From: Geobacteraceae bacterium
GTDB lineage: Bacteria > Desulfobacterota > Desulfuromonadia > Geobacterales > Geobacteraceae
Assembly: GCA_024281055.1 (NCBI GenBank)
Contig: JAMXLF010000016.1
Location: 1 to 38,039, forward strand
DNA: 38,039 bases
Direction: 5' to 3'
Shown: in pieces, positions 31,474-37,836 of the stretch
Layout of the letters: each line of letters begins with the position of its first letter
Position numbering within the stretch: the first letter of the stretch is position 1
Program-made: the position numbers and the translations under genes
Notes under the pieces: generated by a model
What the model was told of the DNA's origin: nothing
What the model saw: the letters and a program-made list of their open reading frames with translations, nothing else
Databases searched by the model: none

Positions 31474-33279
31474 TTATGGACGTTCAACAGCATTCCATGC
31501 TCCGGTATTCCGGTTGTACCCGGCCAGATATGTGTAGGCGCCGGTGGTGACAGGATCGTTCGCGGTTGCTCCCTTGACGTAGACAGAGGGGAAATACTTG
31601 ACAGCCGATGCACCCGTCGACATGTTGATGGTGCCATCGTCGAGGAAGTCGATGGTGTCGTAGATAAGCCTGCGGGTATAGGTGCGGGCATGGGCGAAGG
31701 TAGCCGGGTCGCGGTTGAGGAGGTTGATATTGTAACAGGCACCCATCATTCTCTGGCCGAATTTCTGGTTCTTCGTGCCGCGGGTCCAGTCCGTAACCGG
31801 GGTTGTGCCCGTGGGGTCCTTGGCCAAGTCGTAGAAGTATGGATGATTTGCTGGATCGTATTTGATGCTGTATCGGGCCTGCAGGATTGTGACAGCCAGG
31901 GTCACGGCATCCTGGAACACTTCGGACTGCTCCTTCAGGAAGGTGTCCAGATGAGCCTGGGAGTCGACTTCGGTGCTATGGCATTTGCTGCAGAGCTGGT
32001 TGGCTGTGTTTAAGTTGATCGCCAGGGTATGGCTCGTGCCCCGGTTGGGCTGGCCAGCTGCGTTCAGATGGCAGGTCACACAGGGGCCGCCCGAGTCGAA
32101 ATTGCCAGGGGTGAAGGCGGCCGGGTTGTGGCTGTCTCCAGTGATGAGCGGTGTCCCGAGTTTCCGGTGGGTACTGCTGATATAGCCGGCAGGGGCGGTT
32201 CCTGGGCCGTAGAACATGGTGTAGGAATCACCATAGGTATAAGTTGCCGATGCAGGGGCAGTGGCGGTCGTAAAGGATTTGAAGCCTGTCGTCATGTACA
32301 TCATGCCGGCAGCCGCCATGTAGTGGGAGTTTTTGAAGCTGGCTTTGGTAAAGTCGGTTACGGCCTTGATGGTGTCTTCGCTTTCCCGCCCGGCATGGCA
32401 CGGAATGCACAGGTTGGAAGTGCCGGCATCGGGGAACGTCCTGGGGCTCAGGCCGCCATTGTATGGGGCAGTGTACTGGGCCACAGTACGCACGCTTTGC
32501 TTGAAAGCGTAGCTGGCATGGCATGTGTTGCAACCAAGTACCCCATACGTCGGGCTGGCGGCCAGGGGGACGGTGGGAAGAGTGAATGCCGGCGTGCCCG
32601 TCACGTAGTTGATATAACCGGTCGCCGTGTGGCAGCGCAGGCAGCTCGTATTTGACTTGAAATCCTCCGCTGTCCACGGTTGTGCTTTCACATCGCCATG
32701 TCCCGACGTGGCCCAGTCCCTTGCTTCCTGCAAGATCGTGGTGTCGTGGGGGTTGTGGCAATTCCGGCACTTGCCCGAGTTTTGCTGGTCTACGAACTGG
32801 GCATCGTGGGTCGTGCCGGTGATATTGGTGCTGAAATGGGGTGACCCGAGGGTGAGTGCATTGTGACATGTTGAACACGTTCCGGTGTCATCGGGATTAG
32901 CCTTCTGACCGGTAACGTCGTGGCAGTTGCGGCATGAAGTCTGAGGCGATCCGCCGTGGCACTGGCTGCAACTGTTGGAATGGGTGTGGGAGGAATGGCA
33001 GGCGAGGCAGTCGAGGAAGTCAGCGTGGAAGTGGAACGTGGTGTGGCAGTCGGGACAACGGGCGCCATTGGCGGAATTATGAGCAGAGCGTTGCCATTCA
33101 TCAGTAATGCGTGCCCCGGTGACCGGAGAGATGCTTACGCTGTTGCTCGCATGGCAGCCGATGCATTGTTGCGAAGCGGCAAGCGTCGCTGTCGCCTGAC
33201 CATTGTCACTGCCGCAGCCAGCGAACAACACCAGCGGGAGAATAAACAGAAAAAACTGCATTGAACGATGAATTTTCAT
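31474..33279 (-). CDS. 12-heme c-type cytochrome lipoprotein
   Basis: A 601-residue exported cytochrome with twelve CxxCH sites: CIGCH, CPDCH, CLACH, CSQCH, CRNCH, CSTCH, CRNCH, CLRCH, CNTCH, CIPCH, CVTCH and CSKCH, spread over roughly residues 38-440. A lipoprotein signal (about 1-21, ending LFAGC) predicts anchoring, probably in the outer membrane. The last ~160 residues hold no heme site and are rich in aromatic residues. The heme number and lipid anchor match the outer-membrane cytochromes that Geobacter uses for extracellular electron transfer; OmcB, for example, also has twelve hemes, but I cannot claim orthology. The start at 33279 is set by AAGGGGG; an ATG at 33297 is less likely. It is divergent from the heme-porin gene, 557 bases away. 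Confidence 0.92.
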   Translation of the reverse strand: MKIHRSMQFFLFILPLVLFAGCGSDNGQATATLAASQQCIGCHASNSVSISPVTGARITDEWQRSAHNSANGARCPDCHTTFHFHADFLDCLACHSSHTHSNSCSQCHGGSPQTSCRNCHDVTGQKANPDDTGTCSTCHNALTLGSPHFSTNITGTTHDAQFVDQQNSGKCRNCHNPHDTTILQEARDWATSGHGDVKAQPWTAEDFKSNTSCLRCHTATGYINYVTGTPAFTLPTVPLAASPTYGVLGCNTCHASYAFKQSVRTVAQYTAPYNGGLSPRTFPDAGTSNLCIPCHAGRESEDTIKAVTDFTKASFKNSHYMAAAGMMYMTTGFKSFTTATAPASATYTYGDSYTMFYGPGTAPAGYISSTHRKLGTPLITGDSHNPAAFTPGNFDSGGPCVTCHLNAAGQPNRGTSHTLAINLNTANQLCSKCHSTEVDSQAHLDTFLKEQSEVFQDAVTLAVTILQARYSIKYDPANHPYFYDLAKDPTGTTPVTDWTRGTKNQKFGQRMMGACYNINLLNRDPATFAHARTYTRRLIYDTIDFLDDGTINMSTGASAVKYFPSVYVKGATANDPVTTGAYTYLAGYNRNTGAWNAVERP

Positions 33280-33623
33280 GGCAGGCCCCCTTCCCAATTG
33301 CTCGCTTTATATCACTTATTCACACAAAAAAGTAGACCAAAATTAAATTTCCCAAAATAATGACGTGCAGAATTTTTCTCAGCGACGTTTTGTCCAAGAA
33401 CAGGTATAATTTGATGCCTTCGTGGAAGGGTATTGACGGACGGAACTTGCTTTTTGGGTATACCTTGCGCTAGCGTGTAATGATCTCTGCCGGAAAGACT
33501 GGCAGGCACCGAAACATGCGCGCCCTTCGTCCTAGTCACAATGAATTCGACTGTATCTGACGGGCGTTGCGGATTGCTCTAATCTTGTTCTTTTAGAAAG
33601 GGAAATATAGAGAAAGTGTTAAG

Positions 33624-33652
33624 TTGACTTCATGTTTTGATTGTTGTATTAA
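33624..33652 (+). promoter_or_regulatory. promoter of the heme-porin gene
   Basis: TTGACT (33624-33629), a 17-base spacer, and TATTAA (33647-33652). Transcription would start near 33659, giving a long leader of about 178 bases. Confidence 0.6.
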
Positions 33653-33778
33653 ATGGGGGGCGTTTCGCTTTTATGGCTGGGTGGAAAAGCCGCTTTCTCC
33701 GTTGTGCTTTTATACGTATGATGTCGCCAGTAATCTCCGCCTCTTTATGCACTCCGAGTATTATTCCTTCGTGCATGC

Positions 33779-33799
33779 AAAGAGAGGCTGCCTCTTTTT
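33779..33799 (+). promoter_or_regulatory. terminator-like hairpin in the 5' leader of the heme-porin gene
   Basis: AAAGAGAGG (33779-33787) pairs with CCTCTTTTT (33791-33799) with one G·U around a three-base loop, 37 bases before the start codon. A larger stem, ATGCAC/GTGCAT (33747-33776), precedes it. The pair could be part of a conditional leader; a true U-tract beyond the stem is short, so it may be harmless. Confidence 0.4.
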
Positions 33800-33836
33800 C
33801 CATGATAATGCCATTCGTTGTCTCAGGAGGATTGTT

Positions 33837-35132
33837 ATGAAGCACCGGGCTGTTGCCATTTCACCCCTGCTCTTCGTGTTGGCCCTGTCCCTCGTGTATG
33901 CCCAGAAGGCCCACGCCATACCCGCCTTCAGCCGCTTGCACAAGACCGAATGCAGCACCTGCCATACAATCTATCCCGAACTGAACGAATATGGTCAGGC
34001 GTTTCAGAAGAACGGCTACGTCTATTCCATCAAACCGAAAGGTGAATCGCGGCCCGAATCGACGACACCAGCCGGCACGGGTGAAAAGAATGAGGGGCTT
34101 CTGCTTGCCGGTATCCCCGAAATATTGCCCATTTCATTTACGGCGAATCAGAGTATCACTTACAACGACCATGCCACTGACAAGTGGGATTTTACCACCC
34201 GGTCCCTTGTTCTCCAGGGGGGAGGCTCATTTCGTGACCTGGCGGGTTTTTACATGACCTTTGACCTTTTTTCCCACGCACCCCAAAATGGTCAAACTAC
34301 GATACCCAATAGTTCAAGCAGCTCAAGTCTGGACGAACTGTTTCTGGTATGGCGTCATCTCTTCAATACTCCGGTCAACATAAAGTTCGGCAAGTTCGAG
34401 CCGAAAACCAGCCTCTGGAAGAAGAACGATACGATCATTCCCACCGCTTTTGCCACGACGGCGTTTACCACTGCCCTTACCACGTCTTCCTTTTCCATCG
34501 GTTCTCCGTTCAGACTGAACGACACGCAGGATGCCCTCGAGGCCAACGCTGTCGTCGGCAACAGGGTTTTCCTGGCGGGGGGGATAGTGGATGTGGACGG
34601 TCAGAATACCAAGGACGGCTACGGGCACATTTCGGTGAAATTCGGTGGTGCTGATTTTCTCGGCAATGAGCCGGAAGTGGATTTCGAACACGAAAGCATC
34701 TGGGATTATCTGACAGTGACCCTTGCCGCTTACGGTTTCGCCGGGCGCAACTCTGATCCGTTGGGGAGCTCGGTCAGGGACAATTTTTACCGCGCTGGCG
34801 GTGAGATGGATCTTTTATACAAACGGTTTCGCTTGCGTGCCGCCGGGGTGACGGGAAGGGATACCAATGCTTTTTACAGCACTCCTGCGGCGGAGAAGAA
34901 GCCATTGGTCATTGCTTCGGAAGCGCAATACCTGCTCGGTTCTCCGGTGTCCGTCGTCGGCCTGTTCCGGTACGAGTACCAGGATAACGGTACCGGCATC
35001 ACCCGGCGATATATCCCCGCTGTTGCCTACACGCCACTGCAAAATTTGAAGCTCGTGCTCGAATATATTTATGAGGACACACCGACAGACACCAATCAGG
35101 TGACCCTGCTCGATCTGTCGTACAGTTTTTAA
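33837..35132 (+). CDS. porin-like outer-membrane protein with N-terminal heme c site
   Basis: A 431-residue exported protein. The signal peptide ends about residue 27 (AHA before IPAFSR). A single CSTCH follows at residues 39-43 within the pattern IPAFSRLHKTECSTCHTIYPELNEYGQAF. The rest alternates like beta strands with short turns and ends DLSYSF, an outer-membrane barrel ending in Phe. This order, one c-type heme just ahead of a barrel, is the layout of Cyc2, the iron oxidase of Acidithiobacillus and related bacteria; the length is close to Cyc2. Function is inferred: electron passage between the outside and the periplasm. AGGAGG precedes ATG 33837; the frame is open to 33624. The monoheme cytochrome 43 bases later is a natural partner. 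Confidence 0.83.
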   Translation: MKHRAVAISPLLFVLALSLVYAQKAHAIPAFSRLHKTECSTCHTIYPELNEYGQAFQKNGYVYSIKPKGESRPESTTPAGTGEKNEGLLLAGIPEILPISFTANQSITYNDHATDKWDFTTRSLVLQGGGSFRDLAGFYMTFDLFSHAPQNGQTTIPNSSSSSSLDELFLVWRHLFNTPVNIKFGKFEPKTSLWKKNDTIIPTAFATTAFTTALTTSSFSIGSPFRLNDTQDALEANAVVGNRVFLAGGIVDVDGQNTKDGYGHISVKFGGADFLGNEPEVDFEHESIWDYLTVTLAAYGFAGRNSDPLGSSVRDNFYRAGGEMDLLYKRFRLRAAGVTGRDTNAFYSTPAAEKKPLVIASEAQYLLGSPVSVVGLFRYEYQDNGTGITRRYIPAVAYTPLQNLKLVLEYIYEDTPTDTNQVTLLDLSYSF

Positions 35133-35175
35133 GGACCACAATGAGGTAAATCTCAACGCTTGGGAGGATTCAACA

Positions 35176-35535
35176 ATGAAAAGAATTTTGTCTGTTCTGG
35201 TCGCGCTTTGCCTGCTGAGCACTGCCGCTCATGCAGGCCTCAAGGTGCAAGGCAAAGGTGACAGCATGCGCTTTGATCCATCGAATTTTCCTGCCAACAT
35301 GAAGGCGAACTATGAGATCATGAAGGCAAAATGCGTCAAGTGCCACACGCTGGAAAGAACCGTCATTGCCATCACTACCGGTATCGCTCCCATTTCCGGC
35401 CAGCCCTTCGACCGGAATGCCACCAAAGCATACGGCATCAAGATGCTGCGTAAACCGGACTCGAACATGAACAAGCAGGAAGTAAAGGCAACGGTGGAGC
35501 TCATGAACTGGATGCTCGACCAGGTTGCCAAATAG
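35176..35535 (+). CDS. periplasmic monoheme c-type cytochrome
   Basis: A 119-residue exported protein. The signal peptide (1-20) ends STAAHA. CVKCH sits at residues 53-57, and the methionine-bearing KMLRKPDSNM (about 90-98) could supply the distal heme ligand, as in class I cytochromes c. The mature protein is about 99 residues and has no other heme site. A good ribosome binding site (TGGGAGG) precedes it. Its place directly after the heme-porin suggests a periplasmic electron carrier for it. The name of a specific family cannot be given. Confidence 0.88.
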   Translation: MKRILSVLVALCLLSTAAHAGLKVQGKGDSMRFDPSNFPANMKANYEIMKAKCVKCHTLERTVIAITTGIAPISGQPFDRNATKAYGIKMLRKPDSNMNKQEVKATVELMNWMLDQVAK

Positions 35536-35628: not shown

Positions 35629-37836
35629 ATGTTAAAGGATTTGAAACTCGGAGCCAAGCTTACCGCCCTGTTCATGGTCATGGCACTGCTTGTGGCGGTG
35701 ACCGGCTGTTTCGGCATATGGAGTATCCGTACAGTCGGCAATAATGTTCAGGAGATGATCAAAACCCGCGCCGTCCAGGAAAAGCAGGTTGTGCTCATGA
35801 AGGTAGCCCTCCAGGAGTGCAGGGTGCATCTCCTGGAAGCCGCGATGGTGCTGAACGATTCAGACGAGTTCGAGCTCTCCAAAGGGGATTACGAGGCAAA
35901 ACGGGACCTCTTCAAGGGGTATTGCGACATCATCCTGAAGGGGAACAAGAAGCTCGGGATCCCTCCCGCGGCTAAGGGGAGCGCCCTTGAGCAGCGGGCC
36001 TTGGTGGTCGAGCAGAGCCTCTCGGCCTTTGAAACCGTTTCCGAGGAGCTCCTGGCGCGTAAGGCCGAGCTTCTCAAGGGGCTTAAAAAGGGAGTGGTTG
36101 ACCAGGCTGTCATGAAAGCCATGGCCGACGACAAATTGAACCGCCTGGCCCGGGTGACACTCATGGAGGAAACGGACAAGACCAGGGTTGCCGTGGACGA
36201 TCTACTGGTTACCGTCGGGGGGCTGATGACACAGGCGAAGGAAGAGGTCGTGTCCCTCCAACGCAATTCCACCATTGGCTTTGTCGTGGTCATCTTCGGG
36301 GCGATACTGCTCGCGATTATCCTCGGGATCATGGCCACGCGGAGCATGGTAAGACGGATACACGCCATCGCTCAGGCGCTCGATCGGGGCGCCGAAGGTG
36401 ACCTGACCGTTAAGGTCGCCGTCGATTCGGGGGACGAACTGGGACGGCTCGGTAGCGATTTCAATATCATGGCTGAAAAACTCGCTGGAACCGTAGGGAA
36501 CGTGAATAAGGCGAATGTGGAACTGATCGGCATCTCGCAGGATATCTCCGAGACTGCCAAACGGGTGGTGGACGGAGCGCAGCTCCAGGCTGAAGGGGTA
36601 AGTGCGACCTCTTCGGCGGTAACCCAGATCAACGCTTCGGTCAAGGCGGTCGCAGAAGGAGTTGATGGCCTTTCCCTCTCGGCTGCCGAGAGTTCTTCGT
36701 CGATCCTCGAGATGGCAGCCAGTATTGAGGAGGTTGCCCTGAACGTGGAGACACTGGCCCAGTCGGTGGAGGAGGTGAGTTCTTCCATCGGGGAGATGAC
36801 GGTGTCCATCAAGCAGGTCGGCAACAGCGTCGTCAGCCTCATGGAAGCTGCCGGGACTACCGCCTCTTCGGTGCTGGAAATGGACGGCTCTATCAAGCAG
36901 GTGGAGCAGAATGCCCAGGATACCGCTGCCATCTCGGAAGAGGTAAGGCGTGATGCGGAAACGGGCAAGAAGTCCGTAGAGGCTACCATCGCCGGGATCA
37001 ATGAGATCAAGCGCTCCTCACGGATAACCTCTGAGGTCATCGAGACCCTCTCGGTCCGTGCTTCGGATATCGGTGCCATCCTCTCGGTTATCGATGATGT
37101 GGCCGAGCAGACGAACCTGCTGGCGTTGAATGCCGCCATCATTGCGGCGCAGGCGGGCGAGCACGGCAAGGGCTTTGCCGTGGTTGCCGACGAGATCAAG
37201 GAGCTGGCGGAACGGACCAGCAGCTCCACGCGGGAGATAGCCCAGGTGATCAAGGGGGTCCAGGACGAGACGCGACGCGCGGTCGAAGCCATCAACCAAG
37301 CTGAGAAGAGCATCGCCGACGGTGAGCTGCTCTCCCAGAAATCCGGGGAGGCGCTGAACAAGATAGTTGCCGGTGTCCAGCAGGCAACGACCCAGGTTGA
37401 CAATATCGCCCGTGCCACGATGGAACAGGCGCGCGGGAGCAAGATGATCCGCGAGGCCATGGAACAGGTCTCCGAGATGGTGAGCCAGATCGCCAAGGCA
37501 ACCCGCGAGCAGGGTCAGGGGAGCGAGTTGATCATGACTGCAGTGGAGAAGATGAAAGGGCTGACCTCCCAGGTGCGGGCTTCAACCCGCGAGCAGAGCA
37601 AGGTCGGTAATTTCATCGCCAAGTCGACGGAGAATATCACCGGGATGATCCAGCAGATAAAGCGGGCTTGCGACGAGCAGAGCAAAGGGAGTGAGCAGAT
37701 CGTTCATTCCGTCGAAGATATCCAGATGTCGACCAATGTCAATCTCGAAGCGACCCGGGTGCTGGGTGAAGTGGTCGCGAGCCTCTCATGCCAGATCGAG
37801 ATATTGCAGAAGGAAATGGGCACGTTCAGTATCTGA
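35629..37836 (+). CDS. methyl-accepting chemotaxis protein
   Basis: A 735-residue chemoreceptor. TM1 is about residues 11-33, the periplasmic sensor domain 34-214 looks helical (no PAS or heme motif seen), TM2 is about 215-237, HAMP spans about 238-290, and a long signalling coiled coil follows. The hairpin tip reads [27 protein letters not shown] (written here in two parts: [15 protein letters not shown] and [12 protein letters not shown]) near residues 495-520. Canonical tips have IEAARAGE, so a Glu and the central Arg are replaced by Ile and Gln. Such tips are common in Geobacter receptors of the long class, which may signal through Frz- or Alf-like pathways rather than classical flagellar control. 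The ligand is unknown. It follows the cytochrome by 93 bases, and the next gene begins about 180 bases later. Confidence 0.94.

Follow-up and report, generated by a model that had tools for sequence, protein, structure and literature searches.

In a window of 38,039 nucleotides from a Geobacteraceae bacterium (contig JAMXLF010000016.1) we found a Cyc2-like fused cytochrome-porin gene (P0001) followed on the same strand by genes for a monoheme cytochrome (P0002) and a methyl-accepting chemotaxis protein (MCP), with a multiheme lipoprotein cytochrome gene (P0003) divergently oriented upstream (Table 1). P0001 has a Sec-like signal peptide, recognised by eye, a single CxxCH and a C-terminal phenylalanine. 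The initial annotation had described a heme c site after a signal peptide and then a barrel-like remainder ending in Phe, and the open reading frame, the position of the CSTCH and the structural models all agree with this description. In an alignment of 18 rows, C39, C42 and H43 do not vary, nor do several residues flanking them. In Pfam, Porin_O_P (PF07396) matched P0001 at E 0.0053 with 16.5 bits, below the gathering score of 20.9, and an NCBIfam search of P0001 gave no match. A promoter and terminator scan returned signals within the spread of shuffles.

Table 1. Features of the cytochrome-porin cluster and of a second Cyc2-like gene run.
Feature	Position	Strand	Basis
Cyc2-like fused cytochrome-porin P0001, 431 aa, ATG start	33837..35132	+	ORF, homologues, models, OprO/OprP match
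Shine-Dalgarno AGGAGG, 6 bases ahead of the cytochrome-porin ATG	33825..33830	+	
Heme c motif CSTCH, residues 39-43 of P0001, inside AIPAFSRLHKTECSTCHTIYPEL	33951..33965	+	
Predicted 16-strand beta-barrel domain, residues 99-431 of P0001	34131..35129	+	models, OprO/OprP match
Region between the divergent multiheme and barrel genes	33298..33836	.	promoter-like matches no more than in shuffles
Periplasmic monoheme cytochrome P0002, 119 aa; CVKCH codons 35332-35346	35176..35535	+	ORF, homologues
MCP, 735 aa: 4HB/TarH sensor region, HAMP, MCPsignal	35629..37836	+	
Multiheme lipoprotein cytochrome P0003, 601 aa from first Met, 12 CxxCH, lipobox LFAGC, divergent	31474..33279	-	
Second Cyc2-like subfamily run	L161 8062-12620; L167 6324-10810; L169 6248-10769		

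Two AlphaFold2 models of P0001 both form a barrel of 16 strands, and the second (pTM 0.74, pLDDT 75) supersedes the first (pTM 0.63, pLDDT 59). Residues 21-49, which include the heme motif, have a pLDDT below 50 and were modelled without heme, and the structure comparison covers mainly residues 75-431. The 50 matches listed by Foldseek are outer-membrane porins or porin-based designs. OprO was the top structural match (Z 26.6, rmsd 4.5, 311 aligned; also found via an OprO mutant), followed by OprP (Z 26.5, rmsd 3.0, 305 aligned) and, ranking after both, OprB (Z 25.4). Consistent with this, a profile of 18 relatives reaches Porin O in the PDB at E 0.0017. We looked for a soluble or non-barrel fold and for best matches to non-barrel families, and found structural matches of porin type throughout; the barrel of about 16 strands expected in the initial annotation is thus present in both models. 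The OprO/OprP fold and the weak, sub-threshold Porin_O_P match would also suit an ordinary substrate porin of the phosphate or anion type, with a heme that gates the pore or has a structural role, as would the PBP_like_2-type genes that lie between the monoheme and MCP genes at three related loci (L076, L077 and L079). However, the context of the CxxCH is invariant and the barrel co-occurs with a second cytochrome, and we regard a substrate porin as very improbable.

Full-length homologues of the barrel, in one piece or two, are present in 34 of 48 genomes of the same family (f1, own genome included), and therefore the P0001 reading frame is not a chance one. The match in genome G040 covers the N-terminus only and was left out of this count. 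In the phylum sample, 12 of 395 genomes carry full-length barrels and 26 more match partly, mostly N-terminally. A scan of named records gave 43 loci, including Geotalea, Geomonas, Citrifermentans, Geomesophilobacter, Geomobilimonas and Oryzomonas as well as metagenome-assembled genomes labelled Geobacter, Geobacteraceae, Desulfuromonadales/-aceae and Deltaproteobacteria. The names G. sulfurreducens and G. metallireducens are absent among these 43 loci; the scan needs exact peptides and also missed G034, a genome that bears the gene. In the genome of the window itself two Cyc2-like profiles (A3 and A4) found no second Cyc2-like gene, and a search with P0001 gave one further match, with E 0.09 and two stops. 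A plasmid collection gave four weak partial matches to the Cyc2-like barrel.

Cyc2 iron oxidases have a heme c site and then an outer-membrane barrel, the order of parts found in P0001. The published definition of Cyc2 asks for AXPXFAR[Q/K][T/Y] just upstream of CXXCH, a PXL, a minimum length of 365 aa and a porin, for which OprO (4RJW) and OprP (2O4V) are the published templates (Keffer 2021, PMC8406198, in part). We compared this definition with the P0001 family, whose 84 rows collapse to 62 distinct sequences. PXL stands four residues after the CXXCH in P0001 (CSTCHTIYPEL) and in 54 of the 62; P0001 and 61 of the 62 reach the 365 aa; and the models of P0001 give a 16-strand OprO/OprP-like porin. 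The upstream motif is AIPAFSRLH in P0001, and AXPXFAR[Q/K][T/Y] itself occurs in two of the 62 barrels (L043 and L044, lineage f5). The full consensus was found in 0/62 distinct members, P0001 included. Among 18 Cyc2-like loci outside the family (L051-L068), ten carry the upstream motif and five the full consensus. The likeness to Cyc2 that the initial annotation proposed is thus borne out for the order of parts, the barrel, the PXL and the length, but not for the published upstream motif.

Profile comparison places the family near Cyc2. Alignment A3 consists of six of the 18 outside loci, four of which have the upstream Cyc2 motif, and the family aligned with it over the full length (391 columns, 25% identity, E 7e-49, a rough value since A3 has just six rows, one of them truncated). 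With two other Cyc2-like groups the heme segment alone aligned, over 65 and 46 N-terminal columns. Since none of the 62 members has the full published motif, we call the P0001 family a putative sister family of Cyc2 within a Cyc2-like superfamily, rather than Cyc2 itself. Most of its members would have been excluded from the published Cyc2 tree, which left out sequences lacking PXFAR[Q/K][T/Y] (PMC8406198, in part).

The family shares with Cyc2/Cyt572, as partly described in PMC8406198, the signal peptide, the single N-terminal heme c motif, the PXL, the OprO/OprP-like 16-strand barrel and a length above 365 aa. Where Cyc2 has FAR[Q/K][T/Y], P0001 has FSRLH and its relatives mostly have F[SAT]RQ[HYF]. 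The family also differs in having a monoheme partner gene together with a multiheme lipoprotein and/or an MCP alongside. Unlike Cyc2, it also occurs in relatives of Fe(III) reducers. In genome G014, which is probably C. bemidjiense, the A3 and A4 profiles find the P0001-family gene and nothing else at E 0.005 or better. FeGenie assigns cyc2 genes of G. sulfurreducens and G. bemidjiensis to cluster 3 and also reports cyc2 for the Fe(II)-oxidizing G. metallireducens. Since the profiles give no other match at that level in G014, the cyc2 reported for G. bemidjiensis is probably a P0001-family gene.

These comparisons bear on whether P0001 is a true Cyc2-type Fe(II) oxidase serving electron uptake and energy, for example in nitrate-dependent Fe(II) oxidation. 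The Cyc2-like barrel and heme layout with its OprO/OprP templates, the end-to-end match to A3 and the FeGenie reports are consistent with such an oxidase. However, the published motif is absent, and the genera of the named relatives are known as Fe(III) reducers. To our knowledge the described Cyc2 pathways also include neither MCPs nor multiheme partners. We therefore consider a Cyc2-type oxidase unlikely.

P0002 starts 43 bp after the barrel gene, with GGGAGG at 35162-35167, and has one CVKCH and, by eye, a signal peptide. Its matches to cytochrome c domains in Pfam and NCBIfam are sub-threshold. PccH, considered as a possible identity of P0002, was dropped; a sequence search of solved structures gave 1ccr alone, at E 0.11.

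The barrel was initially described as paired with a periplasmic monoheme cytochrome, and we found this pairing at every barrel locus with room for it: 41/43 named loci, L074 and L104 being the two without room, and 9/9 further loci. Of the 48 same-family genomes, 34 have barrel and monoheme, two the monoheme without the barrel and 12 neither. The phylum sample has the monoheme in all 12 barrel genomes, alone in five (two of them weakly) and neither gene in 378. The co-occurrence was put to a Fisher test in which kinship was ignored. In lineages f90 and f99 the monoheme lies 2.5-3.2 kb from the barrel. In f27, f90 and f99 the heme motif of the monoheme homologues is widened to CX6CH or CX4CH; such motifs were seen at L144-L146 (f27), L121, L122, L123, L133 and L134.

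At 16 places a monoheme homologue stands without a barrel. An MCP lies within 1.1 kb at five of these (L124, L126, L127, L128 and L133), and at the first four it is of the window type; the other 11 have no MCP within 3 kb. Further monoheme copies (L131, L133, L134 and L135) adjoin a PBP gene or, by eye, a histidine kinase gene. PBP_like_2-type binding proteins recur next to the monoheme, at some loci separating it from the MCP (L076, L077, L079, L126, L128, L131 and L135).

The divergent upstream multiheme lipoprotein, which the initial annotation did not include, belongs to the barrel/monoheme cluster. P0003 has Pfam matches to Cytochrom_c3_2 and MtrC/MtrF, and a PDB sequence search gave one meaningless match (E 0.048). 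A multiheme ORF with 7-13 CxxCH, mostly 9-10, stands beside the barrel at 42/42 named Geobacterales loci with room and at 3/3 f90/f99 loci, and 38 of the 42 match the lipobox pattern. Within 3.5 kb of the barrel in f5 and f27 there is no ORF with at least two CxxCH (0/5 loci).

The genes are arranged in several ways. Layout I, the window type, has the divergent multiheme gene, then the barrel, the monoheme, sometimes PBP_like_2, and the MCP. L069 has no room for the multiheme gene and was assigned to this layout from its MCP together with L020, the row that represents this locus in the tree. L098 shows a layout-I-like divergent multiheme arrangement but groups elsewhere in the tree. Layout II has multiheme, barrel and monoheme genes on one strand, mostly with DUF4388 and membrane protein genes ahead. 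In lineage f5 a divergent MCP precedes barrel and monoheme, and in f27 an upstream MCP on the same strand does so, both without a multiheme gene; in f90 the order is barrel, multiheme, monoheme and then MCP. At L090 (6310-8053) and its orthologues at most layout-II loci, the multiheme gene is preceded by genes for a conserved DUF4388 protein and for a membrane protein that has no match in Pfam.

The constancy of the multiheme ORF in Geobacterales, f90 and f99 and its frequent lipobox argue for a respiratory conduit, in which periplasmic cytochromes would pass electrons to the monoheme, the barrel heme and the multiheme lipoprotein and so to acceptors such as Fe(III) and Mn(IV), with the MCP merely co-regulated. 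Geobacter conduits are redundant, and some electrode activity survives a five-cluster deletion (PMC6148476, in part), which is consistent with a further conduit, as are the 19 other Geobacterales loci that retain the multiheme gene without an MCP. However, f5 and f27 keep barrel and monoheme with no multiheme ORF, MCPs adjoin some barrel-less monohemes, and a 16-strand barrel with one heme should make no direct wire to the surface by the argument put forward for Cyc2 (PMC8406198, in part). We hold a respiratory conduit to be somewhat doubtful.

Known conduits differ from this cluster. The Pcc (OmbB-OmaB-OmcB) and Ext conduits of Geobacter sulfurreducens are likewise encoded as a set of outer-membrane barrel, multiheme lipoprotein and periplasmic cytochrome, but here the heme motif is on the barrel itself and the periplasmic partner is a monoheme cytochrome, whereas theirs is multiheme. 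Part of the description of the Ext conduits gives ExtB 18 and ExtE and ExtI 21 transmembrane segments, against 16 strands here. ExtEFG, with its 21-TM barrel, pentaheme lipoprotein and periplasmic dodecaheme cytochrome (PMC6148476, in part), was ruled out as the identity of the cluster, which has 16 strands, a one-heme barrel and a monoheme partner. A Pcc of the OmbB-OmaB-OmcB type, which combines a periplasmic multiheme cytochrome with a heme-free porin as a distinct protein, was also rejected, the barrel here bearing a CxxCH and the periplasmic partner having one CxxCH.

The MCP gene begins 93 bp after the monoheme gene on the same strand, with no terminator-like site between, and its product matches MCPsignal (PF00015, E 1.4e-48) and HAMP (PF00672, E 4.6e-12). 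The initial annotation did not mention this downstream MCP. An MCP is also present close to barrel and monoheme in three further lineages and beside some barrel-less monohemes. All 23 layout-I loci with room have an MCP, in a broken form at L071; L074 ends too early to show one. An MCP is also present at 2/2 f5 loci (divergent), 3/3 f27 loci and 2/2 f90 loci (3.2-3.3 kb away), so that its position varies by lineage. No MCP was found in the searched flank at the 19 other named Geobacterales loci, several of which have short flanks and among which L098 is counted (as layout I it would make the count 23/24), nor at the one f99 locus. Overall 30/50 family loci with room have an MCP and 20/50 do not. 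MCPs lie near barrel and monoheme in 4/6 lineages, two of which (f5 and f27) have no multiheme gene.

The sensor region of the window MCP (residues 1-236) is 38-57% identical in 22/23 layout-I MCPs, 46-47% in f5 and 40-46% in the MCPs beside the barrel-less monohemes of L124, L126 and L128. It could not be aligned with the MCPs of f27, f90 and L133, whose sensor regions differ. In a tree of 46 rows, drawn with a midpoint root, the A3-type group branches first, and f5 and (f27, (f90, f99)) fall outside the Geobacterales clade. Within Geobacterales the loci without an MCP form two clades (13 rows, and four rows: L092, L093, L097 and L098), and layout I is scattered over several branches. The simplest reading is that the MCP link is old and was lost at least twice; given the length of the deep branches, this is tentative.

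We estimated how often an MCP would lie this close by chance. The 4.44-Mb genome of the window contains 11 MCP genes plus an edge fragment, and 11 other genomes have 12-41 MCP matches each, which puts the probability that an MCP falls within 1.5 kb of a given locus at about 1-5%. All figures of this kind are rough: the density in the 11 genomes comes from matches rather than genes, and the loci were taken as independent, which is generous because they are not. For 3/6 family lineages with an MCP within 1.5 kb the p value is 0.0003-0.002, and for family and outside places together (7/38) it is 0.00005-0.002, or 0.002-0.024 when three alike outside loci are treated as one lineage and two dropped (5/36). 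The outside places alone give 0.009-0.06 (4/32), and with the alike loci counted once (2/30) 0.19-0.41, which is not significant.

These outside places are 32 Cyc2-like genes taken from 38 non-full-length rows in sets of 18 and 14, L175 and L180 being doubtful. Three barrel-only partial matches, the short L136 match and second pieces of genes already counted were left out. The 18-place set shares 17 genomic places with the motif-count set L051-L068. An MCP lies within 1.5 kb at four of the 32 (L161, L165, L167 and L169) and not at the other 28. L161, L167 and L169 have a common run consisting of an MCP with CSSCH or CSGCH, a 332-341-aa CRHCH protein, a Cyc2-like barrel of 390-402 aa of the R.VGRDC..CH type and a 185-195-aa protein. 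At L165 (1219-5504) an MCP and a PBP-like ORF accompany a Cyc2-like barrel of the FARQTG..CHFQH type in one run.

Because of the motif mismatch, the multiheme lipoprotein in the cluster and the recurrent MCP, a sensory role appears no less likely than respiration or electron uptake, as far as sequence can tell. In favour of such a role we counted the pairing of barrel and monoheme, the recurrent MCP, the absence of a multiheme gene in f5 and f27, the MCPs at barrel-less monohemes, the similarity of MCP sensor regions across layout I, f5, L124, L126 and L128, the outside run shared by L161, L167 and L169, the small number of MCP genes in the genome and the low chance of the association. Against it we counted the family loci and the barrel-less monoheme places without an MCP, the DUF4388 and membrane protein genes that most layout-II loci have instead, the differing sensor regions of f27 and f90 and the 28/32 outside places without an MCP. 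We tentatively favour, over the respiratory conduit, a redox wire in which barrel and monoheme would feed chemotaxis, perhaps by sensing Fe(II), with respiratory electron flow secondary. The initial annotation left the direction of electron flow undecided from sequence, and we judge this to be right.

In the favoured redox wire, barrel and monoheme would form a minimal one-electron path through the outer membrane. For Cyc2 it has been argued that a single heme on the periplasmic side cannot bridge the membrane and that the donor enters the pore (PMC8406198, in part). The same should hold here: a lone heme does not reach across the membrane, and the donor has to fit into the pore. The barrel heme would therefore exchange an electron with a small redox partner from outside, for which dissolved Fe(II) is the prime candidate, and in turn with the monoheme, whose redox state the periplasmic domain of the MCP may read, much as Tar reads a binding protein. 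Since f5 and f27 do without the multiheme protein, the core device would consist of the dissolved redox partner, the barrel heme and the monoheme, and in the window the multiheme lipoprotein may act as a contact on the outside that brings solids within range as well. Taxis would be the output, and we infer redox or metal sensing, possibly of Fe(II), because the chemoreceptor is the recurrent neighbour outside the clades that have no MCP.

A broader form of the proposal is that these genes make up a dedicated extracellular redox sensor, in which the Cyc2-like barrel would relay the redox state of an outside donor, Fe(II) in the first place, to a periplasmic cytochrome serving as a redox "binding protein" for the MCP or, in the second subfamily, to an MCP that itself carries heme c. 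On the present sequence comparisons we consider this possible, with limited confidence. The second Cyc2-like run with its heme-bearing MCP raised our estimate both for this sensor and for the sensory reading in general; the 11/16 barrel-less monohemes without an MCP held both down.

Shewanella offers a partial precedent. According to parts of PMC5789149, its congregation, which depends on extracellular electron transfer, requires mtrBC/omcA and an MCP, so that outer-membrane electron transfer is coupled to chemotaxis there as well. The same parts describe a respiratory conduit and no gene cluster with an MCP, whereas here the conduit-like genes adjoin one. Geobacter was proposed in that paper to follow gradients of reduced metal ions, a precedent for sensing; for Shewanella, reduced metal ions were said not to be the signal, which argues against it.

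Cyc2 as a fused cytochrome-porin, cyc2 in Geobacter (FeGenie) and taxis dependent on extracellular electron transfer in Shewanella are already known. We found no description of the barrel cluster or of its link to an MCP in the portions covered of the open-licence literature, which included PMC6148476, PMC13194489, PMC3495685, PMC12133095, PMC8302410, PMC8406198, PMC10654088, PMC5566968, PMC7029218, PMC11475568, PMC2825233, PMC4245776, PMC7005843, PMC2577667 and PMC5789149. Homologues of cyc2 are used as markers from which iron oxidation is read in genomes and metagenomes. Should the Cyc2-like families of metal-reducing lineages be wired to chemotaxis, inference from this marker would need care, and part of the Cyc2-like superfamily would be sensory rather than respiratory. 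The question of how Geobacter-type cells find iron would then gain concrete candidate genes, among them a sensor for Fe(II) taxis.

Two further Cyc2-like loci were observed. L136 (6274-7020, genome G009) encodes a protein of 249 aa whose N-terminal heme segment is Cyc2-like but which is too short for such a barrel, and L158 has, about 3 kb from its Cyc2-like barrel, a 914-aa ORF with 35 CxxCH.
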